Part shown: piece by piece, positions 14,045 to 61,514 of the stretch
Numbering within the stretch: the first letter of the stretch is position 1
How the letters are laid out: each line of letters starts with the position of its first letter
Assembly: GCA_017463615.1 (NCBI GenBank)
Contig: JAFTOU010000014.1
Coordinates: forward strand, 1-64,000
Direction of reading: 5' to 3'
Source: Alistipes sp.
GTDB lineage: Bacteria; Bacteroidota; Bacteroidia; Bacteroidales; Rikenellaceae
DNA length: 64,000 nucleotides
Translations under genes and position numbers: made by a program
Notes under the pieces: model-generated
Database searches by the model: none
Told to the model about the DNA's origin: nothing
What the model saw: the letters and a program-made list of their open reading frames with translations, nothing else

Positions 14045-14390
14045 GCGATTAAGCACCTTCGTAAGATAACACCACTCCTCCCAAAAAACTTTTGGAGAAA
14101 CATCGTTTCTCTTCCATTCGCCGCGGAAATAGGCGTTGTCTACGACAATACAAAAACAGCTACAGCACATCACTTTCAAGCCAGCTTGAGTGAGTGATGT
14201 AGCTATTTTTAGTATCCTGCGGATACCAGCCTCTTTCCGAATAAAATCAAAAATCTGTCGCGCAGCGACACCTCTGAAAAGCCAACCGACGCTGCGGAGC
14301 GAGAGCAGAGACTGCTTGCAGACTATGCCGAGCCGCGAGGAGGAAGGGTCGCCGTAGGCGAGCCAATAGCCAACAGCCAGCACAGCTAAT
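14045..14390 (+). repeat. Cloverleaf-like intergenic repeat, copy A (after hslR)
   Basis: A hairpin GAGAAAC-ATC-GTTTCTC (14095-14111) leads into a closing stem GGAAATAGGC (14125-14134) pairing with GCCTCTTTCC (14229-14238). Inside are three arms: TTGTC-TAC-GACAA (14136-14148), a long central arm from AGCTAC to GTAGCT (14158-14204) with a CAAGC/GCTTG tip, and GTATCC-TGC-GGATAC (14212-14226). The same fold with different stem bases follows rpoD, sppA and bglX. The end of this region (14361-14378) carries the AGCCAATAGCCAACAGCC tract. No gene is seen in the gap. Confidence 0.75.
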
Positions 14391-14401
14391 TTTCTCTATT
14401 A

Positions 14402-14433
14402 TTTGTTTTTTTAGGATATTTTACTTAACTTTG
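14402..14433 (+). promoter_or_regulatory. Promoter of mtlD
   Basis: TTTG at 14402-14405 and TAACTTTG at 14426-14433 are separated by 20 bases, an exact match to the Bacteroidota primary-sigma promoter layout. The mtlD ATG follows 42 bases after the -7 box. Confidence 0.75.
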
Positions 14434-14475
14434 TGAGTTAGCGAATAATTTATCCCAAAAAAATATAAAGAAATT

Positions 14476-15633
14476 ATGAAAAAAGCTATTCAATTCGGTG
14501 CTGGCAACATTGGTCGCGGATTTATCGGCGCAGTGTTGGAACAGGCGGGCTATCACGTGGTTTTTGCCGATGTGAATGCCACTGTAATTGACAAGATTAA
14601 CGAGGACAAGTGCTACACCGTACATGTTATGGATGTAGAGTGCGTGGAGCAGAAGATTACAAACATCTCGGGCGTAAACTCCACTACCGACGCTGTGATT
14701 GACCAGATTGTCGGCGCACAGATTATCACCACCGCTGTAGGTGTTGTTATCCTGCCTCGTATTGCCCCAGCGATTGCTAAGGGTATTGCCGCTCGTCGCG
14801 CTGCAGGCGTGGAGGAGCCACTCAACATCATCGCGTGCGAGAACGCTGTACGCGCATCGTCGCAGCTCAAGGAGCATGTCCTCGCGCTGCTGGAGGGTGA
14901 GGATAAGGAGTACTGCACAAAGTGGGTAGGCTTCCCAGACTGTTCGGTAGACCGCATCGTGCCACCAGTGCGCAGCGAGAACCCTATTGATGTTGTTGTA
15001 GAGGCATTCTACGAGTGGAATGTAGAGCAGGCATCTTTCGTGGGTGAGGTTCCACAGATTGCAGGTATGAACCTTGCCGATAACCTTCTGGCTTATGTTG
15101 AGCGCAAGCTCTTCACCCTCAACACCGGTCACGCTATTACCGCCTACACCGGCTGTATGAAGGGTCTGAAGACCATTGACCAGAGCATTGCTGACCCTCA
15201 GATTTACCAGATTGTCAAGGCTGCTATGCAGCAGAGCGGTCTGGGTCTTGTGGCAAAGCACGGCTTTGACAAGGAGGCTCACTTTAAGTATATTGACAAG
15301 ATTATCAGCCGCTTCAAGAACCCTTACCTCAAGGACGATGTTACCCGTGTGGGTCGTGAGCCACTGCGTAAGCTCTCGGCAGCTGACCGCCTTATCAACC
15401 CAACCCTTACCGCACAGGGTGCTGGCGTAGAGACTCCAGACCTGCTGCTCGGTATCGGTGCGGCACTCCACTACAACAACCCTGAGGACCCTCAGAGCGT
15501 AACTATGCAGGCTCGCATCGCAGAGCTCGGTCTCAAGGCTGCCGTAGCAGAGTTCGCATCTCTGGAGGCTGACGCTCCAATCCTTGACCAGATTGTCGCA
15601 GCTTATGCCGAGGTAGAGAAGCGCCTCAACTAA
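14476..15633 (+). CDS. mtlD: Mannitol-1-phosphate 5-dehydrogenase
   Basis: The enzyme interconverts mannitol 1-phosphate and fructose 6-phosphate with NAD(H). The 385-residue protein opens with the dinucleotide-binding motif KKAIQFGAGNIGRGFIG and keeps the long-chain polyol dehydrogenase core, including a central KLFTLNTGHA segment near residue 210 with the conserved lysine and histidine region. No mannitol PTS gene is nearby. Instead an organophosphate:phosphate antiporter gene follows after 25 bases, so the pair may import and use a hexitol or hexose phosphate. Codon use is strongly biased to C/G-ending codons, suggesting high expression. Confidence 0.93.
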   Translation: MKKAIQFGAGNIGRGFIGAVLEQAGYHVVFADVNATVIDKINEDKCYTVHVMDVECVEQKITNISGVNSTTDAVIDQIVGAQIITTAVGVVILPRIAPAIAKGIAARRAAGVEEPLNIIACENAVRASSQLKEHVLALLEGEDKEYCTKWVGFPDCSVDRIVPPVRSENPIDVVVEAFYEWNVEQASFVGEVPQIAGMNLADNLLAYVERKLFTLNTGHAITAYTGCMKGLKTIDQSIADPQIYQIVKAAMQQSGLGLVAKHGFDKEAHFKYIDKIISRFKNPYLKDDVTRVGREPLRKLSAADRLINPTLTAQGAGVETPDLLLGIGAALHYNNPEDPQSVTMQARIAELGLKAAVAEFASLEADAPILDQIVAAYAEVEKRLN

Positions 15634-15658
15634 TTGTTCACTAAAAACCTAACATAAA

Positions 15659-17101
15659 ATGACAGCAGAACAGCAAAAAAAGTTTAAGTATTGGCAGTGG
15701 AGAACCATTGCTGGTACAATGATTGGCTACATCTTCTTCTACCTGATTCGCAAGAACTTCTCGTTTGCGATGCCAGGTCTTACAGCCGATTTGGGTATTA
15801 CCAAGGCTACATTGGGAGGTGTGCTCTCAGCAGCAGGTTTCCTCTATGGCCTCTCTAAGCTGCTCAACGGTATGCTCGCAGACCGCATCAATGGTCGCTG
15901 GCACATGGTTACAGGTCTGGCAGTAAGTACTGCAACCGCATTTATTATCGGTTATGGTGCCGAGATTATCACAGCACTCACAGGTGTGCCCGAGGGCTCT
16001 ACTCCAGAGTTCGTGGGTAAGTTTACAATCCTGCTCTCAGCACTCTGGATTGTGAATAACATCTTCCAGGGCTGCGGTTTCCCTCCATGCTCTCGTCTGA
16101 TACCTCGTTGGGTGCCTGCAAATGAGCTCTCAACAAAGATGTCTATCTGGAACACCTCGCACTCTATCGGTGCAGGTCTTGCAGGTGTACTCTGCGGTGT
16201 GGTAATTATGTCTACCATGGGTACAGATATGTCTGGCAACCCAGAGATTGTTAATATGATTGCCGCTAACCTCAACGAGTCTCCAGAGAGCGCCGAGGTT
16301 ATCGCTAAGGCTCAGCACTATGGCGCATGGAAGTGGGCATTTATCATCCCTGGTATCATCGCTGCTATAGGCGTATTTGTTACAATGGCCATCCTGCGCG
16401 ATACTCCAAAGAGCGTAGGTCTTCCAGAGCTTGAGGATGGCAGCAAGAAGGGCGACGAGCCTCAGGAGAGCCAGGCAGAGATCTCTGCATTTATCCGCAA
16501 GCATGTATGGCAGAACCCTGTTATCTGGGCTCTTGCTCTTGCAGACTTCTTCGTATACATCATCCGCTTCGCAGTCCTTGACTGGGGTCCAACATTCCTC
16601 CAGGAGCACTGCGGTATGACTCCAGGCTGGGCAGCATCTACAGTTATTATCTTTGAGCTCTTCGGTGTTGTGGGTATGCTCGCAGCAGGTTGGATCTCTG
16701 ATAAGGTATTCGGCGGTCGCGCAACTCGTACCTGCCTGTTCTGTATGCTCGGTGCTCTGCTCTCTATCGCTGGCTTTATCGCCCTGCAGACCTCTGGCGC
16801 AGATGCTGTAGTACTCCTCTTCGTACTCGCTCTGGCTGGTATGTTCATCTATGGTCCTCAGGCGCTTATCGGTGTTATCGCCTCTAACCACGCAACTCGC
16901 AAGGCTTCTGCTACCGCTAACGGTATCATCGGCTTTGTAAGCTATGTCAGCGTTCTGGTTTCAGGCTGGGGCTTCGGTCTTATCGCCGACTCTAAGTACG
17001 GCTGGCACGGCGTATTCGTGGCTATGGTCGTTATGGCTATCATCGGCGCTCTTATCTTCGTTCCAATGTGGAAGATGAAGCGCGACGCTTACGAGGAGTA
17101 G
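15659..17101 (+). CDS. Organophosphate:phosphate antiporter family MFS transporter (GlpT/UhpC-like)
   Basis: The 480-residue membrane protein has the twelve-helix pattern of the major facilitator superfamily. The N-terminus (YIFFYLIRKNFSFAMP, then GLSKLLNGMLADR) and the CGFPPCSRLIPRW segment place it with the OPA family, which exchanges glycerol-3-phosphate or hexose phosphates for inorganic phosphate across the inner membrane. The exact substrate cannot be read from sequence. The gene is paired with mtlD and closed by an intrinsic terminator, so the two form a discrete two-gene unit. A sensor role, as for UhpC, is less likely because no uhpAB genes are present. Confidence 0.85.
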   Translation: MTAEQQKKFKYWQWRTIAGTMIGYIFFYLIRKNFSFAMPGLTADLGITKATLGGVLSAAGFLYGLSKLLNGMLADRINGRWHMVTGLAVSTATAFIIGYGAEIITALTGVPEGSTPEFVGKFTILLSALWIVNNIFQGCGFPPCSRLIPRWVPANELSTKMSIWNTSHSIGAGLAGVLCGVVIMSTMGTDMSGNPEIVNMIAANLNESPESAEVIAKAQHYGAWKWAFIIPGIIAAIGVFVTMAILRDTPKSVGLPELEDGSKKGDEPQESQAEISAFIRKHVWQNPVIWALALADFFVYIIRFAVLDWGPTFLQEHCGMTPGWAASTVIIFELFGVVGMLAAGWISDKVFGGRATRTCLFCMLGALLSIAGFIALQTSGADAVVLLFVLALAGMFIYGPQALIGVIASNHATRKASATANGIIGFVSYVSVLVSGWGFGLIADSKYGWHGVFVAMVVMAIIGALIFVPMWKMKRDAYEE

Positions 17102-17121
17102 AAATTCCTTAAATAGCTGAG

Positions 17122-17149
17122 GGAGGGCAATTTAAGCCCTCCTTTTTTT
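17122..17149 (+). terminator. Intrinsic terminator of mtlD-transporter operon
   Basis: GGAGGGC (17122-17128), a seven-base loop, GCCCTCC (17136-17142) and seven T form a strong rho-independent terminator. Confidence 0.9.
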
Positions 17150-17177
17150 GTTCTATAGCAAATAATTACTAACTTTG
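17147..17177 (+). promoter_or_regulatory. Promoter of the secreted four-module gene
   Basis: TTTG at 17147-17150 and TAACTTTG at 17170-17177 are 19 bases apart. The -33 box overlaps the T-run of the preceding terminator. The ATG follows at 17204. Confidence 0.7.
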
Positions 17178-17203
17178 TTATGTAATCCCTAATCCGTACC
17201 GCT

Positions 17204-20200
17204 ATGAAACGACTCGCACTTCTGATTCTCACCACACTATTCGGCATAAATCTTTCGCTGGCGCAGGAGCGACACTACTCTTTTCGCTACATCGGCACAG
17301 CATACAAGACTCAAAGTGGCGGAACAACGACAATGACGGACAAAAGCTCGTCGTGCAAGTTGCCAAGCAACTTTACTGCCAGCTTCCTGCCCGACCACAA
17401 GACCGTATGGCTCTATGGCAGCGGCATAAACGAGAAGCTCACCGGATCGGGAAAGCTCTCCTCGGGCGGCTATGACTTCTCCTCGGGTGCAAGTTGGGAT
17501 GAGATATTGGGTATGATGGCGGCAGTAGATCTGCCTACCTCCTCCTATACGCTATTTACACCGGGCGACTACAGCAAAATAATGGTCACCTCTTTTGAGA
17601 TTAACAGCTCCAATAGCGACTACTACCGCACCCGCTTTGACTACTACAATCGTGTTGCTACGGTCTCAGCTCCACACAACAGCAAGCGCATAGAGGCGGA
17701 ACGCAAGGAGGCGGAGCAAAAGGCGCGTAGCGAGCAGTTCCAGCGGGAGAGTGCCGAGCGCGAAGCAAGGGAGAGTGCTGCGATGGAGGCTCACGACAGG
17801 GCTCTCAAGAACTCTATAGGCAAGCCGTTCCCAATGGCGTACTTCGTTGATTCTCACGGAAATAGAGTAAACAGCTCCTACTTCAAGCGCGGCAAGAAGA
17901 TGCTGGTTGTAACATACAAACCAGGATGCAAACCTAACCTGCTACTCAAGGAGTTACTCAAGGGTTATCCCGAGATTGCATCGCAGGTGCTACATATATA
18001 CCGTGCTGAGTGGAGATACAGCGAGCATCAATTTGACACAAGCGCACCGCTCAGAACGGACCGCATCTATTATAACCCAAGTGAGGAGAACAACCGCAAC
18101 TGGATTTATGCCGGCACCTACCCTTGCATCATCCTGCTTGACGAGTGGGGCAATGTGCTGAGCTACAAGTTTGGCTACAGCAGGGAGGAGGATATGGGCT
18201 ATATGATGCGCATTATCAACCAGTTACGCGGAAGAGATAGCAGCGGTGCTCCATATCAGATTGGCGACTACTACTCTGACGGCAAAACCGAGGGCATAGT
18301 ATTTGAGGTATACAACAACGGCTACAGCGGCAAGATTGTAAGCCTCAAGCATTCAGACAATATTAAACGCTGGAGAGAGAGGGGCTTGCTTGATATCGGC
18401 AAGAGCTTCGGCGTAACTGACGGCAGAGATATTATGTACTACAGAGAGGTGGCTGAAAGTGTCACCGAGGACGACGCCTTTGGTTGGTGTTATCGTCTTG
18501 GTAAGGACTGGTATCTGCCGACCATTGACGAGCTGAAGGCTATATACAAGAACAAGTCTATCATTGAGCCTAAGCTCATACACAAACTTGAGCGTTACTG
18601 GTCCTGCACCGAGCAGAGTGCCGAAAAGGCATACTATATAGAGAAGGGCAGCGGCGTTGTATTTGCCAGCGAGAAGTACTATGGTTGCCGTATTCGTGCC
18701 GTAAAGTGTTTCGGCAATGTTCCTCGCAAAGAGCAGAAGTCCACCTCTGCGCCATACAAGGTTGGTGACTTCTACAACGAGAATGGTAAGTGCGGCGTGG
18801 TCTTTGAGGTAAACGCCGACGGCACAAGTGGCAAGATTTCAACTATTAAACCTCTACCATCCCGCCTACGCTGGGCATCAGACGAGGATGAGGCCTCTCG
18901 CATCGTAGGCGCAAACAGCACAACAGATGGCGCTTACAATATGGCAGCTGTGCAGCGCATACCTAATTGGCAGAGTAAGTATCCACTCTTTGAAACCTGC
19001 GCAAATTTGGGCAAGGGGTGGTATATCCCGGCAATCAATGAGGTAACAGCTATCTATGAAAGTCGCCACAATGGAGCTGTTCCTATTAGCAATGCGATAA
19101 TATGGAGCTCTACTGAGAGTTACAACTATAAAATTTATGCAAATGCCATTGATTTTTATAATGGAAGAAATAATAGCACCGAAAAGGATGTTTCAAATTG
19201 TGCTTATGCCGTCACAACCTTTGGAGATATAGAGTCTAAATCGACCCCGGCTATCACCCACAAGCCAACCTCTGCCCCATACAAGGTTGGTAGTCTCTAC
19301 AACGAGGATGGCAAACAGGGCGTTGTAATTGAGGTGTGGGACAATGGCTGCAGTGGTAAGATTATAAGCCTTACAGAGTCTTTAATGCCGTGGTCTGAGG
19401 CCAAAGAGAGCTGCAAGGCGCTGGGCGAGGGGTGGTATCTCCCCTCTGCAGAGGAGCTAAGGCTACTATCATACGACAAATCGGATTATGAGGCGATAAG
19501 TGAGGCTCTGAAGCAGCATGGCTCTCCACTTAGTACAAAGTCTAACTACTGGAGCTCAACAGCTACTGGAGAGACCATTCACCGCGTCTACCCTACAGCA
19601 TATACTATTAAAATAGGTGGGAAGTGCTCACAAGAGCCTACCTGCAATGGCTATTACATCCGCGCCATGGCGACCTTTGGCACTACTCCGCGCCCGACCA
19701 CCACGCTTATTCGCCCGAAGACCTCCGCGCCATACAATGTTGGCGACTACTACAACGACGGTGTAAAGGACGGCATTGTATTTGAAGCTACCGCGGGCGG
19801 TTTCCAGGGCAAGATTGTGAGTATCAACGAGTCTATGAGCAAGATTTGTTGGGCAAAAGATTGGTACACATACTATGGTGCAAAGAGCAAGACCGATGGC
19901 GCTTATAATATGAAGGTAATAAAGTCGGCGACTAACAATTTGGAGGACTTACCTGCCTTTAAGTGGTGTGCCGACTTGGGCGAGGAGTGGTATCTGCCGT
20001 CGGCAAAGGAGCTGCAGGCTATCTACAAGTGTCGTAAGATTGTCAATAAAAATAGTTCGCACTGGTCATCCACAGAGAGCAAGATGGCTGATAAGTCCTA
20101 CAAAGAGTACTCCGACTACGATAGAAGACCTGGTGCTTTTTCAGTCTATAAGGATGAGGGCAAGGTCAATAGTATTGCAAAGCTACGAAATCATCGCAAC

Positions 20201-20227
20201 TCTGTCCGCGCCGTAGCAAAATTTTAG
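17204..20227 (+). CDS. Secreted protein: thioredoxin-like region plus four tandem DUF1566-like modules
   Basis: The 1007-residue protein has a signal peptide ending near LSLAQ at residue 20, a region with no recognised family, an Arg/Glu/Ala-rich helical linker (about 165-200) and a thioredoxin-like segment near 205-340. In the last, GKPFPMAYFVDSHGNRV and LVVTYKPGCKPN resemble TlpA-type proteins, but the second cysteine of the redox pair is absent, so it is probably not a disulfide reductase. From residue 346 on, four modules (about 346, 513, 687 and 839 to the end) each start APYxVGxxYxxG, carry a GWYLP(S/T)xxEL core and a W-S-S/C-T motif, and end in RAxxxFG. This pattern matches DUF1566/Fibrobacter major paralogous domains with a C-type-lectin-like fold. 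Function is unknown; surface binding is a guess. Confidence 0.7.
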   Translation: MKRLALLILTTLFGINLSLAQERHYSFRYIGTAYKTQSGGTTTMTDKSSSCKLPSNFTASFLPDHKTVWLYGSGINEKLTGSGKLSSGGYDFSSGASWDEILGMMAAVDLPTSSYTLFTPGDYSKIMVTSFEINSSNSDYYRTRFDYYNRVATVSAPHNSKRIEAERKEAEQKARSEQFQRESAEREARESAAMEAHDRALKNSIGKPFPMAYFVDSHGNRVNSSYFKRGKKMLVVTYKPGCKPNLLLKELLKGYPEIASQVLHIYRAEWRYSEHQFDTSAPLRTDRIYYNPSEENNRNWIYAGTYPCIILLDEWGNVLSYKFGYSREEDMGYMMRIINQLRGRDSSGAPYQIGDYYSDGKTEGIVFEVYNNGYSGKIVSLKHSDNIKRWRERGLLDIGKSFGVTDGRDIMYYREVAESVTEDDAFGWCYRLGKDWYLPTIDELKAIYKNKSIIEPKLIHKLERYWSCTEQSAEKAYYIEKGSGVVFASEKYYGCRIRAVKCFGNVPRKEQKSTSAPYKVGDFYNENGKCGVVFEVNADGTSGKISTIKPLPSRLRWASDEDEASRIVGANSTTDGAYNMAAVQRIPNWQSKYPLFETCANLGKGWYIPAINEVTAIYESRHNGAVPISNAIIWSSTESYNYKIYANAIDFYNGRNNSTEKDVSNCAYAVTTFGDIESKSTPAITHKPTSAPYKVGSLYNEDGKQGVVIEVWDNGCSGKIISLTESLMPWSEAKESCKALGEGWYLPSAEELRLLSYDKSDYEAISEALKQHGSPLSTKSNYWSSTATGETIHRVYPTAYTIKIGGKCSQEPTCNGYYIRAMATFGTTPRPTTTLIRPKTSAPYNVGDYYNDGVKDGIVFEATAGGFQGKIVSINESMSKICWAKDWYTYYGAKSKTDGAYNMKVIKSATNNLEDLPAFKWCADLGEEWYLPSAKELQAIYKCRKIVNKNSSHWSSTESKMADKSYKEYSDYDRRPGAFSVYKDEGKVNSIAKLRNHRNSVRAVAKF

Positions 20228-20291
20228 GTAGATAGTACAATATTACGCAGACGCCTTGCGTTTGTTTTGCGACAAAAAGAACAACACAACT

Positions 20292-21755: not shown

Positions 21756-21763
21756 TCCGATCC

Positions 21764-21920: not shown

Positions 21921-22781
21921 ATGCGTCAATTAAAAATTACAAAGTCCATCACCAATCGCGAGAGTGCGTCGCTTGACAAGTATCTCCAGGAGATTGGCAA
22001 GGAGGATCTTATCACCGTTGAGGAGGAGGTAGAACTCGCCCAGCGAATCCGCAAAGGCGACCAGGAAGCTCTGGAGAAGCTCACAAAGGCCAACCTCCGC
22101 TTCGTTGTATCCGTTGCAAAACAGTATCAGAATCAGGGACTTAGCCTGCCTGACCTTATCAACGAGGGTAACCTCGGCCTTATCAAGGCTGCCGAGAAGT
22201 TTGACGAAACCCGAGGCTTTAAGTTTATCTCTTACGCCGTATGGTGGATTCGCCAGTCTATCCTCCAGGCTCTGGCAGAGCAGAGCCGTATCGTGCGTCT
22301 GCCACTAAACCAGGTGGGCTCACTCAATAAGATTAACAAGGCCTTCGCTCGCTTTGAGCAGGAGCACGAGCGCGTACCATCTCCAGAGGAGCTGGCGCAG
22401 GAGCTTGAGCTGCCGCGCGAGAAGGTTACCGATACCCTCCGCGTAGCAGGTCGCCACATCTCCGTAGATGCACCGTTTGCCGACGGCGAGGATAACTCAC
22501 TGCTCGATGTGCTGGTAAACCCAGACTCCCCTAACGCCGACCGCGGACTTATCAACGAGTCCCTGGCTACAGAGGTGGACCGCGCCCTTGAGACCCTCAC
22601 CGAGCGCGAGCGCGATATCATCCGCTACTTCTTCGGCATCGGCTGCTCCGAGATGACCCTCGAGGAGATTGGCGAGAAGTTCGACCTCACCCGCGAGCGC
22701 GTACGCCAAATCAAGGAGAAGGCTATCCGCCGCCTCCGCCACTCATCCCGCAGCAAACTGCTGAAGTCGTACCTCGGCTAA
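21921..22781 (+). CDS. rpoD: Primary RNA polymerase sigma factor (sigma-70)
   Basis: The 286-residue sigma factor directs RNA polymerase to housekeeping promoters. It lacks region 1.1 and starts at region 1.2 ([28 protein letters not shown]), continues with region 2 ([15 protein letters not shown] and [13 protein letters not shown]), region 3 and region 4.2 ([17 protein letters not shown]-type helix-turn-helix, here [15 protein letters not shown]). About 286 residues is the normal size of the Bacteroidota primary sigma, whose -33/-7 promoters are seen throughout this window. The start codon sits directly behind the inverted-repeat leader, so its translation may be controlled by that hairpin. 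Confidence 0.95.
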
Positions 22782-23044
22782 CGCCTCGGTAAGACGATAG
22801 TACCGCCGCTTTTTGAAAAAAGCGGCACCAAAAACTTTTGGAGAAACTCCGTTTCTCTTCTATGCGCTGCGGATTTAGGATAACTGAAGTTATTGAAACA
22901 AAAAATAGACCTTTCAGTCTTCAAGTAAACTTGAACTGAAGGTCTATTTTTCATTTCACCGCCTTCGGCAGTAGCCCCAAATCCGAAAAAAGTTCTACTG
23001 CGTCAGCCAGCCAATGGCCAATAGCTAACAGCCAATAGCCAATT
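22782..23044 (+). repeat. Cloverleaf-like intergenic repeat, copy B (after rpoD)
   Basis: The copy begins with GCCGCTTTTT-GA-AAAAAGCGGC, then CAAAAACTTTTGGAGAAACTCC as in copy A. The closing stem is CGGATTT (22870-22876) with AAATCCG (22979-22985). Arms: ATAACT-GA-AGTTAT (22880-22893), a long arm AGACCT to AGGTCT (22907-22945) with a CAAG-TAAA-CTTG tip, and a short GCC-TTC-GGC arm (22961-22969). The AGCCAATGGCCAATAGCTAA tract follows at 23005-23044. Confidence 0.75.
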
Positions 23045-23168
23045 TGTTGTCAGAGTGCGCCAGGTACGGTGCATCGTGCAAAAAATCAGTCGCGGATAGT
23101 ACTAAAAGCGTACAGCCGCGACTGATTTTTAAGGGATGTGCCGTAGATGGCGTACTATCACGACAAAT
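23044..23168. repeat. Long-hairpin intergenic repeat, copy 1 (after DUF3467 gene)
   Basis: AAAAATCAGTCGCGG (23081-23095) pairs perfectly with CCGCGACTGATTTTT (23116-23130). The tip is GTAC-TAAAAGC-GTAC. Flanks GTCAGAGTGCG on the left and CGTACTATCACGAC on the right are shared with the copies at 31016-31143 and 36415-36535. The right flank overlaps the stop codon of the DUF3467 gene. Confidence 0.75.
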
Positions 23169-23436
23169 TTGGTTTGAAGCCACCCTGAGGTAATTTTATA
23201 GCTCCAAACTTGCTCTCGTAATTGTGCAAATTCTCCTGCAGGGAGAGCAGAAGTCGCTTTGCGTGCTCGGGGGTGAGGATGATGCGAGAGCCGACCTTTG
23301 CCTTTGGCATGCCAGGGAGGGCAGAGGCGAAGTCAAGGATAACCTCACTTGGAGAGTGAGCGATGATAACAAAGTTAGAATAGTGACCCTGAGCGGTCTG
23401 TGGGTCAATCTCAAATTCAATCTTATTCTCAGCCAT
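23158..23436 (-). CDS. DUF3467 family protein
   Basis: The 92-residue protein (MAENKIEFEIDPQ, then YSNFVIIAHSPSEVILDFA and SRIILTPEHAKRLL) is a textbook DUF3467 member, a small cytosolic family common in Bacteroidota with no known function. It follows the DeoR-type regulator by 35 bases on the same strand. Its start lies three bases after the right-arm motif CTAATTTATAGAACATACCT shared with rpoD and kbl. A structured repeat overlaps its stop codon. Confidence 0.88.
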   Translation of the reverse strand: MAENKIEFEIDPQTAQGHYSNFVIIAHSPSEVILDFASALPGMPKAKVGSRIILTPEHAKRLLLSLQENLHNYESKFGAIKLPQGGFKPNLS

Positions 23437-36171: not shown

Positions 36172-36400
36172 GGATGCGCGGGCTACGCAGTACTGCCCGC
36201 TTTTTGAAAAAAGCAGGGCGTGCAAAAACTTTTGGCAAAACTCCGTTTCTCTTCTATGCGCTGCGGAAATAGTCTGTTGTCTACAACAATACAAAATCAG
36301 AGAGATACTTCGCTTTCAAACAAGTTTGAGCGAGTATCTCTCCGCTTTTTGTATCCTTACGGATACCAGTCTATTTCCGAATAGAATCAGTTTTATACAC
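36172..36400 (+). repeat. Cloverleaf-like intergenic repeat, copy C (after sppA)
   Basis: The copy starts with a GCCCGCTTTTT-GA-AAAAAGCAGGGC hairpin and CAAAAACTTTTGGCAAAAC. The closing stem CGGAAATAG (36264-36272) pairs perfectly with CTATTTCCG (36371-36379). Arms: TTGT-CTACA-ACAA (36277-36289), AGAGATACT to AGTATCTCT (36301-36341) with a TCAAAC-AA-GTTTGA tip, and GTATCC-TTAC-GGATAC (36351-36366). Confidence 0.75.
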
Positions 36401-36414
36401 ATCGCATCTGTTTG

Positions 36415-36535
36415 TCGTCAAAAGTGCGTAGTTGCGGTGCATCGTGCAAAAAATCAGTCGCGGATAGTACTAAAACGTACAGCCGCGACTGATTTTTAAG
36501 GGATGTGCGGCTAATGCCGTATTTTCACGGCAAAG
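36415..36535. repeat. Long-hairpin intergenic repeat, copy 3
   Basis: AAAAATCAGTCGCGG (36449-36463) pairs with CCGCGACTGATTTTT (36483-36497) around a GTAC-TAAAAC-GTAC tip. The central 50 bases are nearly identical to the copy at 23081-23130. GTGCATCGTGC on the left and GGGATGTGC on the right are also shared. Confidence 0.75.
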
Positions 36536-42015: not shown

Positions 42016-42086
42016 GGTCTGATGGCCGAGTGGCTAGGCAGAGGTCTGCAAAACCTCGTACAGCGGTTCGAATCCGCTTCAGACCT
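42016..42086 (+). tRNA. tRNA-Cys (GCA)
   Basis: The acceptor stem GGTCTGA pairs with TCAGACC, with U as the discriminator base as in other tRNA-Cys. The anticodon arm GAGGT-CTGCAAA-ACCTC gives anticodon GCA, and the T arm is AGCGG-TTCGAAT-CCGCT. The 71-base length and lack of an encoded CCA are normal for this phylum. Confidence 0.95.
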
Positions 42087-42089
42087 CTA

Positions 42090-54327: not shown

Positions 54328-54346
54328 AGCGATGTCTATTTGAGTG

Positions 54347-54436: not shown

Positions 54437-54477
54437 CATCATAAAAATAAGCGATAACTAAATATGGGGTTATAACA

Positions 54478-54672: not shown

Positions 54673-54699
54673 CAAGGTATAATAAAAAATCTTACAGTT

Positions 54700-55029: not shown

Positions 55030-55031
55030 TT

Positions 55032-55340: not shown

Positions 55341-55344
55341 AGGT

Positions 55345-55977
55345 ATGAAGAAGGTTTGTTTGCTATTAAGATGTTCTACATCCGTGCAAGACTATGAATA
55401 TCAACGTAACACTTTGACGGATATATGCAATCGCAATGGATGGGAGATTGTACATACAGTTGAAAATAAGGTATCAGGTGCAAAGAAGAACGAGGAACGA
55501 GAGGAAATAATCGAGTTGCTTGATTATGTAAAGCACAATGATGTTGATATTGTAGTGGCAACTGAGGTTAGCCGATTAGGGCGTGATACCTTGGAAGCCT
55601 TGAAGATTATTGAAATTCTCAACGAGAACAAGGTTAATCTATACTTTGCGAACTATGGCATTGAGACATTATTGCCTGATGGCACGGTGAATCCAATAGC
55701 ACGTCTGATACTTACCATCTGCCTTGAAATCTCAGCTTACGAGCGAAATCTCATTAAGTATCGCATGAAAGCGGGCTACGAGGATTACCTTAAAAAACGC
55801 AAGGAAAATCCAGAACTCCGCCTTGGGCGACAAGGCTACAAGAAGGATGAACAGTCGTACAGGGAGGATTATGCACAGGAACTCTCGCTGTTGAGAAAAG
55901 GCATCAGCCTACGCAACATCCAGAAGCTAACAGGAACAAGCGTTGGCACATTGCAGAAAATTAAGAAATACATATAG
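55345..55977 (+). CDS. Small serine recombinase (resolvase/invertase type)
   Basis: The 210-residue protein has the serine recombinase catalytic domain (CLLLRCSTSVQDYEYQRNTL with the catalytic serine near residue 10, VVATEVSRLGRDTLEAL, and LILTICLEISAYERNLI) followed by a short helix-turn-helix region (GISLRNIQKLTGTSVGTLQK). The start at 55345 is preferred because an upstream frame overlaps the previous gene. Enzymes of this size resolve multimers or invert DNA rather than integrate it. It may act on the element's circular form or on an inversion site I could not identify. Confidence 0.88.
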   Translation: MKKVCLLLRCSTSVQDYEYQRNTLTDICNRNGWEIVHTVENKVSGAKKNEEREEIIELLDYVKHNDVDIVVATEVSRLGRDTLEALKIIEILNENKVNLYFANYGIETLLPDGTVNPIARLILTICLEISAYERNLIKYRMKAGYEDYLKKRKENPELRLGRQGYKKDEQSYREDYAQELSLLRKGISLRNIQKLTGTSVGTLQKIKKYI

Positions 55978-56168
55978 TTTTGGTTTAAGTAAGATTGAAA
56001 AGCATGAATAGCAGTTAGAGCATAAGAGATATAGCATATCTAATGCAAGGGTTTTACGCTTATCCCTGCCATACAAGGACATCAAAAAACGGTGGGCGAA
56101 AAACAAATAACCTCTATGCCTTAAATAGCGTATAGGGGAGTGCCAAGAGCACAGAATACTCAATATCA
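55978..56168 (+). other. Gap between the two recombinase genes
   Basis: No coding region is supported. It has a GATAT-AGC-ATATC palindrome and no TAnnTTTG promoter that I can see. A recombination site for the small resolvase could lie here, but nothing identifies one. Confidence 0.3.
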
Positions 56169-56333
56169 ATGCTGAGTATAGAGAAATGTCGAGATATTCT
56201 TAAATCACATAATTACGATTTGACTAATGAAGAAATAAAACAAGTTAGAGAATTTCTATATCTATTCGCTGAAATTCAGATAAATGCAGAAAAAGAATTA
56301 TTAAAAGATGAAGAATGTAATACTATATTGTAG
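56169..56333 (+). CDS. 54-residue helical protein overlapping the recombinase start
   Basis: The frame begins MLSIEKCRDILKSHNYDL and ends NTIL before a TAG at 56331-56333. It is strongly helical and charged (EEIKQVREFLYLFAEIQINA). The stop lies 26 bases inside the large recombinase gene, so the two are translationally coupled. Small helical proteins in this position are common ahead of integrase genes; no function is assigned. Confidence 0.55.
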   Translation: MLSIEKCRDILKSHNYDLTNEEIKQVREFLYLFAEIQINAEKELLKDEECNTIL

Positions 56334-57879
56334 GGTCAGTTCAGACGAGCAAAAAACAAATACGTCACTTGAATTCCAAGAGAAGAAGCTGAGACACTAC
56401 TGTAATGAACATGGTTACAATGTAATTGCTTGTTACCACGAAGATTTCTCAGGCAAACATCATGATTTTGCCCGTCCTGAGATGAAGAAGATTCGTGATT
56501 ACTGCAAAAAGCATAAGCATGAGGTTGATTTAATCCTGTTTCTCCGATGGGATAGGTTTAGTCGTAATCCCGAATTTGCATATATGTTCAAGCGAATGTT
56601 CTTGGACGATTGGGGTATTGAATTTAATGCCATCGAGAGCCCTATTGATTTTGGCGCAACTGAATGGTCGTCATTGCTGAGTAGTTATTGTGCGGCTGCA
56701 CATACCGAGAATAATAAGATTAGTCGAAGAACAAGAGATGGTGTTCGTGAAACGCTACTCTCCGGTAGACTTGCAAATAAAGCACCAAGAGGCTACAAGA
56801 ATGTACACATTACGGATGAAAATGGTAAAACCATATCCAAGACAGTTGAAATTGATGAAGGGAAAGCGTCTCTTATTAGGACTATATTCAACGAAGTGGC
56901 AAAAGGTATTGAAGCCCCGTGTGCCATTCGAAGAAGAATTGCGCCTGATATTCCTGAGAGCACCTTCCTCGATATATTACGTAATATATTCTATAAAGGT
57001 AAAATCCGAGTTCCTGCGACTAAAACAGAACCTGAGGTTATTGTTGAAGGATTGCACGAACCATTGGTGACTGAGGCGGTTTTTGATACAGTGCAGGATA
57101 TTTTGGATGGCAAACGAAAGAAGAACCCCAAACTCACAAAGCCGATAAGGTCCGAATTTTATCTACGCAAGTTTTTGGTTTGTCCTCATTGTGGTAGAGC
57201 AATAACAGGAGCGACAAGTAAGGGTGGAAGCGGTGGAAAATATCCATACTACTTCTGTCCGACAACAGGGAAGCATATACGAATAAAAGCAGATGCGCTT
57301 AATTCCGCTTTTGTTGATTACGTTGGCAGCCTCCGCCCAAATCAGGCGATTATGCAGTTATATAAAGAGGTATTGCTTGATTTGCGTAAAGATAATGCAA
57401 GAGATATTAGGGCTATGATTGATGGCATAGATAAGGATATTTTGGAGATTAACGAACGAATGGATAAGATTGAGGACAAGTATCTTGATGGAGAGATTGA
57501 CAACGATGCTTATAACCGAATGATTACGAGACAGAAGAACCAATTGAATACGCTGGTAAGCAGGAGAGAATTGCTCGAAACGTCCAATCGAGAAAAAATC
57601 GAACCGCAGTTAAAGTACTCTATTAACTTGATAGACAATATAGATAGGTTCTTTCAATACGCTCCCGCTGAGGCTAAGATAAAGGCATTAAGTTCGATTT
57701 TTCCTGAAAAAATTGAATTTGACGGAAATAATTTTCGAACTGTTAGTATGAATAGCGTACTTAGTCTAATATATCAGCAAACCAATGAGTTACGAGGATT
57801 AAATAAAAAAAGCGAGGAAAGTTTTTCAACTTTCCCCGCTTCTGTACCCGGAGCCGGGGTCGAACCGGCACAGGGGTGA
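56308..57879 (+). CDS. Large serine recombinase (integrase)
   Basis: The 523-residue protein has the N-terminal serine recombinase domain (VILYCRVSSDEQKTNTSLEF with the catalytic serine near residue 9, and LILFLRWDRFSRNPEF), the recombinase domain with APRGYKNV, a zinc ribbon (CPHCGRAITGATSKGG to YYFCP) and a coiled-coil C-terminus (IDKDILEINERMDKIEDKYL). This is the architecture of large serine integrases. The last roughly 25 residues, including VPGAGVEPAQG, are encoded by the tRNA-Leu terminator and the tRNA itself, so the natural tail probably differs in the excised form. Confidence 0.9.
   Translation: MKNVILYCRVSSDEQKTNTSLEFQEKKLRHYCNEHGYNVIACYHEDFSGKHHDFARPEMKKIRDYCKKHKHEVDLILFLRWDRFSRNPEFAYMFKRMFLDDWGIEFNAIESPIDFGATEWSSLLSSYCAAAHTENNKISRRTRDGVRETLLSGRLANKAPRGYKNVHITDENGKTISKTVEIDEGKASLIRTIFNEVAKGIEAPCAIRRRIAPDIPESTFLDILRNIFYKGKIRVPATKTEPEVIVEGLHEPLVTEAVFDTVQDILDGKRKKNPKLTKPIRSEFYLRKFLVCPHCGRAITGATSKGGSGGKYPYYFCPTTGKHIRIKADALNSAFVDYVGSLRPNQAIMQLYKEVLLDLRKDNARDIRAMIDGIDKDILEINERMDKIEDKYLDGEIDNDAYNRMITRQKNQLNTLVSRRELLETSNREKIEPQLKYSINLIDNIDRFFQYAPAEAKIKALSSIFPEKIEFDGNNFRTVSMNSVLSLIYQQTNELRGLNKKSEESFSTFPASVPGAGVEPAQG
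57804..57840 (-). terminator. Intrinsic terminator of tRNA-Leu
   Basis: On the minus strand AGCGGGGAAAGTT-GAAA-AACTTTCCTCGCT is followed by TTTTTTATTT. It lies inside the recombinase reading frame, so it was brought by the element and replaced the original terminator. Confidence 0.85.
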
Positions 57880-57928
57880 ACCTACTGGTGTTTGAGACCA
57901 GCGCGTCTACCGATTCCGCCATCCGGGC
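57845..57928 (-). tRNA. tRNA-Leu (CAA)
   Basis: The acceptor stem GCCCGGA pairs with TCCGGGT (G-U at the first pair), and the discriminator is A. The anticodon arm CTGGT-CTCAAAC-ACCAG gives anticodon CAA, with a leucine-type variable arm and a T arm GCCGG-TTCGACC-CCGGC. No CCA is encoded. Its 3' end is the integration target of the adjacent element. Confidence 0.95.
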
Positions 57929-57946
57929 TGATGCTTTTTGCGGGAG

Positions 57947-57976
57947 CAAAGGTAGATATTTTTTTTTGATTTACAA
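57947..57976 (-). promoter_or_regulatory. Promoter of tRNA-Leu
   Basis: On the minus strand TTG (57974-57976), 19 bases, then TACCTTTG (57947-57954) lies 18 bases ahead of the tRNA. Confidence 0.75.
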
Positions 57977-58035
57977 TAGTTTGTCAAAAAAAATCACTAC
58001 CTTCGTATCTATATTTGACCAAACCTTAAACTACT

Positions 58036-58455
58036 ATGGGAAATTTAACTTTTACGATGATTAAGCCCGACGCTGTTCGTGCTTCCAACCACGCCAAGAT
58101 TCTGCAGCACCTTGTAGATGCTGGATTCCGCATTGTCGCTCTGCGTATGTGGTGTATGTCGCGCAATGACGCTAAGCGTTTCTACGCCGTACACACTGGC
58201 AAGCCATTCTTTGATGGTCTGATTGACTTTATGACTTCAGGACCGATTGTTGCAGCGGTGCTGGAGAAGGAGGATGCCGTTGCCGAGCTGCGCAAGACCG
58301 TCGGCGCAACCAACCCTGAGGCAGCCGAGGCAGGCACTGTCCGCGCACTCTATGGCACCAATGTTCAGCAGAATGCCATCCACGCTTCAGATAGCGACGA
58401 GAACGCAAAAATTGAGTGGCAACTCCACTTCAAGGATAGCGATATTATGCTCTAA
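58036..58455 (+). CDS. ndk: Nucleoside diphosphate kinase
   Basis: Ndk equalises nucleoside triphosphate pools by passing phosphate through a phosphohistidine. The 139-residue protein shows TFTMIKPDAVR at the start and the active-site segment QQNAIHASDS with the catalytic histidine. Chromosomal codon use returns here after the element, so this gene was downstream of tRNA-Leu before integration. It is divergent from tRNA-Leu. The accessory methyltransferase operon follows. Confidence 0.96.
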   Translation: MGNLTFTMIKPDAVRASNHAKILQHLVDAGFRIVALRMWCMSRNDAKRFYAVHTGKPFFDGLIDFMTSGPIVAAVLEKEDAVAELRKTVGATNPEAAEAGTVRALYGTNVQQNAIHASDSDENAKIEWQLHFKDSDIML

Positions 58456-58610
58456 CAGAGATTGAACAACTTTATAAAACACCTAATAACAGCGTATACG
58501 AAACAGATATAGTATAACGACATATTATTAACGAGCTTTTAGCTCTTATTCCTGCTTCCAGAAATCCGCCAAATTTCAAGAAAGCCAAATGGGAATAAGT
58601 TTTGGAAGTT

Positions 58611-58711
58611 CACACCGTGTGGTGTGGGCTATCTATGCTTATACATTTGGTAGGGTCTTGGCGGAGCCTCTGGAAGATATAGGCAACAGGATAGTTTCAC
58701 ACCCTTTTTTT
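58611..58711 (+). promoter_or_regulatory. Possible attenuator ahead of the methyltransferase operon
   Basis: Two pairings compete for the same strand. CACACC (58611-58616) can pair with GGTGTG (58621-58626). Alternatively GGTGTGGGCTATC (58621-58633) pairs with GATAGTTTCACACC (58690-58703), followed by CTTTTTTT. The second fold is a terminator with a long loop; the first would prevent it. It ends 37 bases before the methyltransferase ATG. Confidence 0.5.
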
Positions 58712-58747
58712 GCCTTACGGATAGAGCTATGGCGCAACACTACAGCT

Positions 58748-59731
58748 ATGGCAAACGCAAACCTCACTCAAGCGAAGAAGGCGAAAAAGGATGAGTTCTA
58801 CACTCAACTATCTGACATTGAGCGTGAGCTCTCCCACTACAAAGAGCACTTCCGTGGCAAAACAGTCTTGTGTAACTGCGACGACCCTCGCGTAAGCAAC
58901 TTCTTCCACTATTTCGCCTACAATTTTGAACATCTTGGTCTCAAACGACTGATTACCACCTGCTACAAAAGTCAAGATATAGACTTGTTCAGTATGAATA
59001 GTAGCGAACAAGCCGTATACCTTATTTATGAGGGCGATATAGACGGAGACAAACTGCCATCGCCTGATGAGATAGGCGTACATCCACTCAAGGGGGACGG
59101 CGATTTTCGCAGTCAAGAGTGCATAGAGCTACTCAAGCAGGCTGATATTGTCGTTACAAATCCGCCATTCTCGCTCTTTCGTGAGTATGTTGCACAGCTA
59201 ATAGCGTATGATAAGAAGTTCATTATCATAGGTCATCAAAATGCAATCACTTATAAAGAGATATTTCCGCTCATACGTGACAATAAGTTGTGGCTTGGCT
59301 ACGGGTTTAAGGGAGGAGCTGCACATTTCATATCCAAGTATGAGGATGTTGCTACATCATCCAACCATAAAGCGGGTATGATAAGAGTGTCAGGAGTTGT
59401 TTGGTTTACAAATCTTGACCATAACAAACGCCACGAAGATTTAATCCTCTATAAAAGGTATACTCCTAACGAGTACCCAAAATATGACAACTATGATGCA
59501 ATTGAGGTTTCAAAAACGGCAGACATTCCGCATGATTATAATGGAGTTATGGGTGTGCCAATTACATTTCTTGACAAGTATAATCCAGGGCAGTTTGAAC
59601 TGGTAGGTATGGCAGAAGATAATGGTAAAGGATTTTCATTTGATGCAAATTGGGATGGTAAAAATCCTCACTGTGTTATAAATGGCAGAAATATGTTTAA
59701 AAGAATATTTATCCGCAGAATCAAAAAATAG
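58748..59731 (+). CDS. EcoRI-type adenine-specific DNA methyltransferase
   Basis: From the ATG at 58748 the protein has 327 residues (MANANLTQAKKAKKDEFYTQ), the N-terminus typical of the EcoRI methylase family. The catalytic motif NPPF is present in DIVVTNPPFSLF, and the SAM-binding region is near KTVLCNCDDPRVSNF. These enzymes methylate adenine at N6 to protect DNA from a partner nuclease. A frame extending 53 codons upstream runs through the structured leader and is rejected. The partner here is a DUF262-HNH protein six bases downstream, not an EcoRI-like nuclease. The recognition site cannot be read from sequence. Confidence 0.88.
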   Translation: MANANLTQAKKAKKDEFYTQLSDIERELSHYKEHFRGKTVLCNCDDPRVSNFFHYFAYNFEHLGLKRLITTCYKSQDIDLFSMNSSEQAVYLIYEGDIDGDKLPSPDEIGVHPLKGDGDFRSQECIELLKQADIVVTNPPFSLFREYVAQLIAYDKKFIIIGHQNAITYKEIFPLIRDNKLWLGYGFKGGAAHFISKYEDVATSSNHKAGMIRVSGVVWFTNLDHNKRHEDLILYKRYTPNEYPKYDNYDAIEVSKTADIPHDYNGVMGVPITFLDKYNPGQFELVGMAEDNGKGFSFDANWDGKNPHCVINGRNMFKRIFIRRIKK

Positions 59732-59737
59732 AGACTT

Positions 59738-60820
59738 ATGAAAATAGAGCTAACAAAAATAACCGTTAGGGAGCTGACAAAGGGCTATCGTGACAGCAAC
59801 GAGGAGGGTATTGTCGGCTATAGTGGCTTGCTGAATATTCGTCCGAAGTATCAGCGCGAGTTTGTATACAACGACAAACAGCGAGATGCTGTGATAACGA
59901 CCATAAACAACGGCTTCCCGCTCAATGTGATGTATTGGGCGGTGTGTGACGATGGTACTTTTGAGATTATAGACGGTCAGCAACGAACAGTGTCTGTGTG
60001 TCAGTATGTTGCGGGAGACTTCGCCTATAATTTTCGCTATTTCCACAACTTGCAACAAGATGAGCAAGAGAAAATTTTGGATTACGAGCTGATGATATAC
60101 CTATGTAGCGGCACAGATAAAGAGAAGTTAGATTGGTTTAAGACCATCAACATTGCAGGTGCTAAACTGACAGACCAAGAGTTGCGTAATGCCGTATACT
60201 CAGGCTCGTGGGTTAGTGATGCAAAGCGTTACTTTAGCAAAAGCGGATGTGCTGCATACAAAGTTGGGGGCGACTATATGACAGGTTCTGCTATTCGTCA
60301 AGAGTATCTTGAGACCGCCATATCGTGGATATCCGAGGGCAATATTGATATATACATGGCAAAACATCAGAACGATGCCAATGCTGCTGAACTATGGTTA
60401 TATTTCCAAGCCGTGATAAATTGGGTCAAAATGGTATTCCCAAAGTATCGCAAAGAGATGAAAGGCGTTGATTGGGGTGCTCTATATAACAGATATGGCA
60501 AACAACCATTTGATTCTCTGGCAATAGAGGAGGTGGTGGCGAAACTGATGCAGGACGAGGATGTAACCAATAAAAAGGGAATCTACAGCTACATCTTTGA
60601 CCACAATCAACGACATTTGAATATCCGCGCCTTCTCAGAGAGGATGAAACGAGTCGCTTATGAACGCCAATTAGGCGTATGTCCTCTGTGTAATGAATAT
60701 TTCCTCTTTGAGCAGATGGAGGGTGACCACATCACTCCGTGGAGCGAGGGCGGTATGACTATTGCCGAAAATTGCCAGATGCTCTGTCGCGATTGCAACC
60801 GTCACAAGAGTAATAAATAG
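59738..60820 (+). CDS. DUF262 (GmrS-like) protein with C-terminal HNH nuclease
   Basis: The 360-residue protein has an N-terminal DUF262/ParB-like domain with the diagnostic EIIDGQQRTVSV motif near residue 70, and RPKYQREFVYN ahead of it. The last 50 residues form a classical HNH fold with zinc CxxC pairs: CPLCNEYFLFEQMEGDHITP and LCRDCNRHK, the D-H pair being catalytic. DUF262 proteins in GmrSD-type systems use nucleotide to cut modified DNA. Fused to HNH and next to a DNA methyltransferase, this is likely the restriction partner of that enzyme. Confidence 0.82.
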   Translation: MKIELTKITVRELTKGYRDSNEEGIVGYSGLLNIRPKYQREFVYNDKQRDAVITTINNGFPLNVMYWAVCDDGTFEIIDGQQRTVSVCQYVAGDFAYNFRYFHNLQQDEQEKILDYELMIYLCSGTDKEKLDWFKTINIAGAKLTDQELRNAVYSGSWVSDAKRYFSKSGCAAYKVGGDYMTGSAIRQEYLETAISWISEGNIDIYMAKHQNDANAAELWLYFQAVINWVKMVFPKYRKEMKGVDWGALYNRYGKQPFDSLAIEEVVAKLMQDEDVTNKKGIYSYIFDHNQRHLNIRAFSERMKRVAYERQLGVCPLCNEYFLFEQMEGDHITPWSEGGMTIAENCQMLCRDCNRHKSNK

Positions 60821-61114
60821 CATTCGTGCTCAATTTGGCAACAAAAATGTTCACTTTGAGCATATCGCACAATTTTAACCCAAGCCACTCGTTATTGGTA
60901 TGAAGATTGCACTTCAAAACAACAGCTGCGGTGGAAACTGCAAGCCGCAGTGAGGTTTCTTCATTTATTTAAGTTTGGGTTAGTAGTTTAGGGGAGCAAT
61001 CCCCGAGGTAAGAGGTCGTTGAGAAACGCCCTCTTATTTTTTTGTAGCTCCCCTAAACTACTAACCCACATTTGTCCCATACATTTCCCATAATCGTGGT
61101 TTATTATTTATCAA
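60821..61114. repeat. 22-base perfect inverted repeat around a terminator
   Basis: TGGGTTAGTAGTTTAGGGGA plus GC (60976-60997) is perfectly repeated in inverse at 61047-61068. Between the arms, AAGAGG and CCTCTT flank a loop and are followed by TTTTTTT. Upstream, CTGCGG and CCGCAG form another hairpin near 60930. No gene is seen in this gap. Confidence 0.8.
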
Positions 61115-61204
61115 TCAGCACAAATCGGGTGGTGCGGCTATATTAGCTTTAGCGGTCACGGTCAATGCCGCAACCGCTAAAATCAGTGTCAAAATACACT
61201 TCAT
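61115..61204 (-). CDS. Possible 29-residue exported peptide
   Basis: The frame reads MKCILTLILAVAALTVTAKA then NIAAPPDLC before TGA. It looks like a signal peptide with a short mature tail and a lone cysteine. It could be a small exported peptide or the remnant of a longer gene. No database family is claimed. Confidence 0.3.
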   Translation of the reverse strand: MKCILTLILAVAALTVTAKANIAAPPDLC

Positions 61205-61296
61205 TACTCTATCACAAATGCACGTTATTCCCAAATATTTGTACTGCGTCAGCCGTACTGCGTAGCAAGGTGCCGACATCTATTCGCGCACCCGGA

Positions 61297-61358
61297 GCAG
61301 AAAGGGTCAGATTTTTCTGACCCTTTCTGCGACTAAGTCCCCCTTTGACAAAGGGGGA
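61297..61358. repeat. Two adjacent perfect hairpins
   Basis: GCAGAAAGGGTCAGA-TTTT-TCTGACCCTTTCTGC (61297-61330) is a 15-bp perfect stem, directly followed by TCCCCCTTT-GAC-AAAGGGGGA (61338-61358) with a GGGGG repeat after it. Confidence 0.7.
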
Positions 61359-61410
61359 TTTAGGGGGAATGTCAATATTTTTTACTAAAAAGTAGGTCAG
61401 TCGCTATACT

Positions 61411-61514
61411 CAACTTTCAGACCTCTGAAGGAGGCGCACGACAGATAGTCTGACTGCAAGTTTACTTGCAAAGTCAGCACTATCTGTTGGGCGGCAGCTT
61501 GCTGCTGAAAGTTG
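61411..61514 (-). repeat. Cloverleaf-like intergenic repeat, copy D (after bglX)
   Basis: The closing stem CAACTTTCAG (61411-61420) pairs perfectly with CTGAAAGTTG (61505-61514). Arms: CCTC-TGAAG-GAGG (61422-61434), ACAGATAG to CTATCTGT (61441-61487) with TGACT/AGTCA and a GCAAG-TTTA-CTTGC tip, and a small GCAGC/GCTGC arm. The fold matches copies A-C although the sequence differs outside the CAAG/CTTG tip. Confidence 0.7.

Follow-up and report, generated by a model that had tools for sequence, protein, structure and literature searches.

A cloverleaf-shaped repeat family at gene ends in Alistipes and its possible spread as folded DNA

What keeps the shape of an intergenic element constant while its letters change? 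The question is raised by a 64,000-nt stretch of DNA (contig JAFTOU010000014.1, positions 1 to 64,000; "the window" below means this whole stretch) from a genome of 2.38 Mb in 67 contigs, 93% complete, which we take to be an Alistipes. The window carries four cloverleaf-like elements, numbered 1 to 4 here, that lie downstream of hslR, rpoD, sppA and a bglX-like gene, respectively, and that an initial annotation had read either as RNA structures at 3' ends or as mobile repeats resembling repetitive extragenic palindromes (REPs). We find many copies of these elements in the host genome, a common fold, a recurring bulge, biased loops, inner parts swapped between copies and one orthologous site that is empty. 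We favour, with no more than modest confidence, the explanation that each element is a copy of a mobile palindrome that is non-autonomous, defined by its structure, of the class that includes REPs and miniature inverted-repeat transposable elements (MITEs), and spread and swapped as folded DNA.

Size and distribution of the family

The repeating unit is a four-way cloverleaf of 104-125 nt. The host genome holds 36 places: 34 recovered with a structure model, element 4, and a fragment lying at the end of a contig. A search by DNA similarity with element 2 yields 30 matches in this genome, and a covariance model trained on eight subfamily A copies, element 2 and seven others, yields 53 matches that correspond to 34 places, 19 of which match on both strands, the unit being a palindrome. 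This A-trained model also recovers subfamilies B and C, including the other three window copies. Sequence divides the copies into subfamily A (CGGATTTAGG; its arms are of two types), subfamily B (CGGAAATAG) and subfamily C ((G)CAACTTTCAG). A 5' module is common to most copies of A and B and is found in none of the seven C copies of the host genome.

Within the genus, 28 of 180 genomes have a cloverleaf match at E<=1e-6, 11 of them with 12-20 matches and 17 with 1-6, in a search that counted both strands of a palindrome and scored no more than 20 candidates in each genome. Across the order, the host is the only one of 295 genomes with a match at the threshold used (0/294 others), in a search that scored 12 candidates per genome under strict filters and may miss weak relatives. 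An exact-pattern search found 106 stretches, and the 80 listed among them all belong to Alistipes or to metagenome-assembled genomes of Rikenellaceae, many from the ruminant gut. None of the elements corresponds to a named Rfam family. The window has three Rfam matches, none at an element, and six loci searched at E<=1 have seven, namely two tRNAs outside the elements and five matches below the gathering score, of which a single one, to MIR319 (E 0.41), overlaps an element. We found no description of this repeat family in the open-access literature searched.

Paired change and anatomy

The stems of the cloverleaf are retained while their bases change. Covariation was assessed on 72 copies, 67 of them distinct, from other Alistipes. 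These rows were fetched by an exact DNA pattern that fixed only the closing stem and the tip, so that arm 1, arm 3 and most of the central arm were free to vary; 68 of the 80 listed stretches were used, the other 12 lying in genomes already sampled. Among the 67 distinct copies 96.2% of cells are paired, a figure inflated by the selection and alignment of the rows with a model of this structure, and the 100% pairing seen in 10 pairs is partly by construction, given the fixed closing stem. Both sides have changed in 30 of 46 pairs, with arm 1, arm 3 and the central arm carrying most of the changes. Covariation reaches a score of 0.388, where shuffles give 0.143 (0/500 as high) and slid partners 0.05-0.08. 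Of five measures, four exceed every shuffle; the fifth, which counts further pair types, does not (62 versus 58.9, with 58/500 as high). Whole closing stems also differ among genomes and still pair, as seen for CGGATTTAGG, CGGAAATAG, CAACTTTCAG, CCGCCTTTCG (with CGAAAGGCGG in genome G026), TAGCCTTTCG (with CGAAAGGCTA in G007) and, with one mismatch, CGTGTTGGGG (with CCCCAACCCG in G005). Closing stems likewise pair in the A, B and C copies of the host, with some mismatches and one truncated copy. The earlier proposal of compensatory stems is borne out. Its corollary, that such paired change speaks for selection on folding, goes too far, since both arms can also be altered at once by template switching in a palindrome or by swapping between copies.

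Features of the unit other than its pairing were counted in 101 copies, obtained from 106 host and relative copies by removing 5 duplicate sequences, with two host copies cut by contig ends left aside. The tip of the central arm is (T)CAAG-N4-CTTG(A), and in the 100 copies that have the tip pattern its loop is CAAG (37), CGAG (28), TAAA (20), CCAG (10), CACG (4) or CTTG (1), the outermost loop bases being complementary in 100/100. Just below the tip helix, 99 of 100 copies (one with an unpaired tip was dropped) have an extrahelical bulge on the 5' side of the sense strand, opposite a side that is shorter or empty. The bulge is 2 nt against 0 in 75/100 and reads TT in 58. Copy orientation was set by model score, which makes the side of the bulge partly a matter of definition, though not its presence.

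Loop sequences in the side arms are biased in a strand-specific manner. The usual reading on the sense strand is C(TNC)G or C(TNNC)G, which corresponds to GNA or GNNA on the antisense strand; the antisense form is found in 86/100 copies for arm 3 (sense 0/100) and 52/93 for arm 1 (sense 5/93). Triloop hairpins in the 60 nt upstream, largely belonging to the 5' module, have CTNCG in 64/87 cases, while control triloop hairpins away from the elements have TNC or GNA in 7/44. DNA loops such as CTTG and TTTA have two-residue character, and two of the three common tip loops take these forms when read on the antisense strand. GNA and GNNA mini-hairpins are reported to be extraordinarily stable as DNA (PMC4686876).

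The central arm is further marked by an A-tract in 95/101 copies and a T-tract, a sequence feature defined as a run of at least four T within 38 nt after the tip, in 96/101; element 4 is among the five copies that lack the latter. A larger nested palindrome often surrounds the cloverleaf, with ends GGCTACGCAG...CTGCGT(C/T)AGCC and the 5' hairpin module. Its left end, GGCTACGCAG, occurs 28 times in the host genome against 1 for a control, and the 17 further places listed for it include some inside genes and some after stop codons, in front of plain terminators or other repeats.

All four structures described earlier are present in the window, and each is able to fold as a closing stem with three arms, although for elements 2 and 3 the structure predicted to have the lowest energy has the side arms joined. 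Their RNA folding z-scores, from element 1 to element 4, are -6.9, -6.9, -8.1 and -7.2, and 0/200 shuffles fold as well in each case. Element 1, of subfamily B (14124..14239, + strand), is closed by CGGAAATAGGC/GCCTCTTTCCG with one mismatch and has the tip TCAAG-CCAG-CTTGA at 14176-14189 above a TT bulge at 14174-14175; a partial 5' module precedes it on the same strand (14082..14123, with a GAGAAACATCGTTTCTC hairpin at 14095-14111). Element 2, of subfamily A (22870..22985, +), runs from CGGATTTAGG to CCCAAATCCG with one mismatch, its tip TCAAG-TAAA-CTTGA lying at 22921-22934 above a CT bulge at 22919-22920. Its 5' module (22805..22869, +) consists of hairpins GCCGCTTTTTGAAAAAAGCGGC at 22805-22826 and GAGAAACTCCGTTTCTC at 22841-22857. 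Element 3, again of subfamily B (36264..36379, +; CGGAAATAG...CTATTTCCG), has the tip TCAAA-CAAG-TTTGA at 36316-36329 (+) with TT at 36314-36315, and is preceded at 36181..36263 (+) by the outer end motif GGCTACGCAGTA (36181-36192) and a 5' module made of a hairpin at 36195-36219 with an imperfect one after it. Element 4, of subfamily C (61411..61514, - strand; CAACTTTCAG...CTGAAAGTTG), lies on the same strand as the GH3 gene at 61522-63879 and has the tip GCAAG-TAAA-CTTGC within 61455-61470 (-).

The ranges first given for elements 1-3 partly took in the 5' module, with its one or two hairpins. The four do form one family, with the qualification that element 4 represents a third subfamily and lacks the 5' module. 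None of the findings that would have overturned the initial annotation turned up: further copies are many, covariation is strong, and at the elements there is no Rfam match. Profiles identify the upstream genes as an Hsp15/S4-domain protein (hslR, whose stop codon ends at 14044), RpoD, SppA and a GH3 glycosidase (bglX-like), and the gaps from their stop codons to elements 1-4 are 79, 88, 92 and 7 nt. The window also contains a cobalamin riboswitch (RF00174, 47076-47270, - strand, 90 bits), a tRNA-Cys (42016-42087) and a tRNA-Leu (57844-57928).

Gene context, exchange and neighbouring repeats

Gene contexts, taken from dicodon-scored gene calls, place the copies mainly at gene 3' ends. The 36 host copies comprise 18 between convergent genes, 14 tandem-sense, 2 tandem-antisense and 0 divergent, with 2 at contig starts that could not be assigned; the 72 copies from relatives comprise 40 convergent, 6 tandem-sense, 9 tandem-antisense and 1 divergent, with 16 unassigned at contig ends. 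Copies are accordingly common after genes and rare between divergent genes, in raw counts set against no genome-wide expectation. The earlier description of the elements as following stop codons on the coding strand holds for the four window copies but not as a strict rule. Convergent copies, half of those in the host (18/36), satisfy it by default, and elsewhere there are antisense copies as well as copies on the 5' side of genes. Four of the nine tandem-antisense copies of relatives represent one orthologous site, at queA, where the element lies on the 5' side of the gene in 8/8 loci inspected (the host genome and seven others). A near-universal same-strand placement, suggested by longest-ORF (open reading frame) calls for 32/33 upstream genes, was rejected as overstated, since convergent pairs conform by default and the queA gene had been missed.

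Comparison of orthologous sites points to exchange between copies. Across the eight queA loci, at least three clearly different inner sequences lie between the same closing stems and within similar flanks, and the 5' module varies independently of the inner sequence. The sppA site carries a B copy in the host, an A copy in G028 and a truncated copy in G027 (locus L112). Two further loci (L141:1365 and L195:1014) have their outer flanks in common and differ in both 5' module and cloverleaf. Contigs G028:C26 and G027:C4 were compared by synteny at two cloverleaf sites; each site holds a copy in either genome, and at one of the two the inner sequence differs. An occupied and an empty site can be set side by side in one pair of loci: L140:386, assigned to G085 by its coordinates, carries a compound that is missing from G028 (L106), with flanks 93% and 88.5% identical.

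For the rpoD site, 26 of 30 loci fetched were viewed, 25 of them from relatives. One of these 25 ends at the gene; by eye, none of the other 24 has a cloverleaf in the 330 nt after rpoD, and most show a plain hairpin. The one in G005 (L068) is terminator-like and plain, has no side arms, and bears a bulge and the family's tip, as TCAAG-GAGA-CTTGA. Two places in the host genome (L226 and L236) carry simplified copies, consisting of GGCTACGCAG, a plain terminator-like hairpin, an apparent 3' half of the closing stem and, after it, the module that usually lies downstream; these may be decayed or precursor forms.

Other repeats accompany the family. A palindromic element of ~190 bp (GGAGTAGTATTAACC...TTAACACCACTCC) has an apparent end at ~14060-14079 of the window and interrupts 5' modules elsewhere in the host genome (L229, L241) and in G027. 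The string AACACCACTCC at ~14068-14079 (+), just before the partial 5' module of element 1, belongs to this apparent end; it also terminates a ~190-bp element elsewhere in the host, and a similar string is found in G027. A second dispersed repeat lies at ~23050-23166 and 36412-36533 (+) and forms an imperfect hairpin of some length, in which bulges recur and the apex is GGATAGTAC...GTACAGCC. Its stems also vary among copies, 180-nt segments around it fold at -80 and -74 kcal/mol, and the loci fetched contain 64 distinct strings of it, possibly including the two in the window. Degenerate GCCAATAGCC/GCTAACAGCC runs, present at ~14358-14390 and ~23008-23045, often follow cloverleaf compounds, and the empty site L106 has such a run. 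In the 70 nt after each of the seven C copies of the host stands ATTGACATTCCCCCTAAATCCCCC or a close variant of it (in the window at ~61340-61385, - strand), and strings resembling ATTGACATTCCCCCTAAATCCCCC adjoin low-copy variants in G026 and G007.

Folded DNA, RNA signal or passive palindrome

If the family is a mobile palindrome, recognition and copying would act on its unit in the form of folded DNA, either single-stranded or cruciform, probably by way of the antisense strand, whose GNA/GNNA loops are unusually stable as DNA. A hairpin-recognising enzyme other than a Y1/HUH transposase would act on it, and the copies would then trade inner parts by gene conversion. The central arm, with its A-tract, stem and T-tract, may act as a bidirectional terminator, through which copies would be tolerated at gene ends. 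We raise tentatively, and with some doubt, the idea of a new class of mobile repeat, in which a folded single DNA strand is recognised by an enzyme that belongs to neither the HUH/Y1 nor the integron family. Such recognition of the bulged CAAG/CTTG tip and the GNA-capped arms would leave nearly all of the sequence free to change and produce one shape across genomes. There is a real chance that the mobilising activity itself is new.

Known repeats offer partial parallels. REPs and bacterial interspersed mosaic elements (BIMEs), which are linked to REP-associated tyrosine transposases (RAYTs; TnpA-REP, Y1 HUH), are described as high-copy intergenic palindromes located after genes or between convergent or unidirectional genes (PMC3733652, PMC6006769). 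The present family resembles them in being intergenic, mostly 3' of genes and rare between divergent genes (0/36 in the host, 1/72 in relatives), and in its bulged hairpins and the inverted pairs of one genome, G005. On contigs C16, C25 and C27 that genome has four BIME-like pairs of oppositely oriented cloverleaves, with a spacing of 73 bp in three pairs and 193 bp in the fourth. Unlike a REP, described in the same sources as 20-65 nt, the unit is a cloverleaf of 104-125 nt. By inspection, uncounted, it also lacks a GTAG/GTGG or CGTC tag at its foot, where the bases on the 5' side are GCGCTG, CGTTG, TGATG, CTGTGG and others, and those on the 3' side AGTAG in some host copies and AATAG in others. 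Size and foot tag are softer failures than that of the Y1 transposase, because PMC6006769 mentions "atypical secondary structures" beside Bacteroidetes subclass 2.6 of the REP transposases. With MITEs the family has in common non-coding sequence, inverted terminal repeats, many copies, a patchy distribution and other MITE-like palindromes nested beside it; it differs in terminal repeats that vary between genomes while still pairing, and no target-site duplication was recognised in the one occupied/empty pair compared. Bidirectional intrinsic terminators have the same A-tract, stem and T-tract, here set within a conserved cloverleaf with a fixed tip and bulge.

A number of observations weigh against spread as folded DNA. 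The REP transposase domain expected of a REP-like repeat (PF01797, Y1) is found in 0/20 Alistipes genomes, the host included and several of them incomplete, while the same profile detects it in 5/14 control genomes; the REP-like proposal of the initial annotation fits better than its RNA alternative but is left without its expected transposase family. A reverse transcriptase was considered as mobiliser and rejected: RVT_1 is present in 10/20 genomes and does not track copy number, being missing from the high-copy G027 and present in five genomes with no cloverleaf match (G002, G013, G014, G022, G029). No recurrent transposase beside the copies was recognisable from the first 80 residues of the unannotated proteins in the 25 largest clusters made from 988 predicted proteins of the fetched loci, and no parent insertion sequence was identified, the search for one not being systematic. 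The empty site L106 holds a GGCTATTAGCC-rich array where the insert sits in its counterpart, so replacement is possible; it belongs to the one occupied/empty pair found, in which no target-site duplication is recognised. The 14:2 sense bias of tandem copies in the host is unexpected for purely DNA-level insertion, and most copies owe their detection to a structure model. The mismatch evidence has limits of its own. Selection on a sense RNA fold should accept G·U pairs and purge A·C, and over all pairs there are 57 G·T against 42 A·C cells. Without three helix-end pairs (12-31, 32-108 and 39-100) the counts are 24 and 25, in related rows and with the proviso that these three pairs hold most of either mismatch and were picked after the counts had been seen. 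These reduced counts give no sign of RNA selection on either strand. Finally, DNA parameters make the antisense strand more stable in 94/101 copies, and RNA parameters make the sense strand more stable in only 18/101; since both favour the antisense strand, this preference alone does not point to DNA.

The chief competing account, which we consider unlikely though credible, is that the elements act in RNA, as elaborate intrinsic terminators or mRNA-stabilising cloverleaves of the 3' untranslated region, with selection acting on the sense RNA and gene conversion spreading the copies. It would explain why most host copies lie at a short, regular distance after a stop codon and why tandem copies there are so strongly sense-oriented, and it agrees with the terminator-like tracts of most copies and with the plain hairpins after rpoD in relatives, one of which bears the family's tip. 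It is harder to reconcile with the near-equal G·U and A·C away from helix ends, the biased loops on the antisense strand, copies on the 5' side of genes such as queA, the T-tract missing from 5/101 copies and the tandem copies of relatives, 6 sense versus 9 antisense. A generic terminator scan of 22700-23200 on the sense strand likewise called only a 5-pair stem in the 5' module and missed the central arm of element 2. Of the RNA 3'-end reading first proposed, the terminator-like features survive, while the mismatch test, the loop bias and the antisense and 5'-side copies count against it; on the whole the evidence leans towards a DNA rather than an RNA fold.

Two further accounts place the cause elsewhere. 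Template switching is a serious alternative as the source of the paired changes: it has been proposed to create hairpins and to keep up both of their arms (PMC8794818). A version in which it alone keeps the arms complementary, with no selection on folding and passive spread by recombination, strikes us as improbable. Blocks of inner sequence swapped between copies and the existence of truncated or simplified forms (L112 at the sppA site; L226, L236) would suit it, but template switching should tend to erase asymmetry, and the bulge under the tip persists in 99/100 copies, as do tip and loop identities while the stems turn over. A very improbable account, finally, makes the elements recombination sites of the integron attC type, acting as a folded bottom strand with extrahelical bases under a tyrosine recombinase. 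Integron attC sites follow genes, keep structure while sequence varies, carry extrahelical bases and fold better on the bottom strand, all of which the cloverleaves match. The boxes of attC sites are RYYYAAC/GTTRRRY. By inspection these boxes are not conserved among the copies, single C copies fitting presumably by chance; the fold is a four-way junction with three arms instead of one hairpin, and the flanking genes checked are not cassettes. An integrase above the TIGR02249 cut-off is found in 0/20 Alistipes and equally in 0/14 control genomes, a search thus lacking a positive control, and weaker matches to the model, presumably other tyrosine recombinases, occur in 20/20 Alistipes and 14/14 controls alike.

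Conservation of shape in place of sequence is a trait familiar above all from attC sites and REPs, and in the Alistipes genomes searched the enzyme of neither was found. If the folded strand is what is copied, these genomes would hold an undescribed activity of DNA-hairpin recombination or transposition; if sense RNA is selected instead, dozens of genes would share an unusually elaborate 3'-end signal. Because its sequence turns over fast while asymmetric features persist, the family is a natural case in which to separate selection on folding from template switching.

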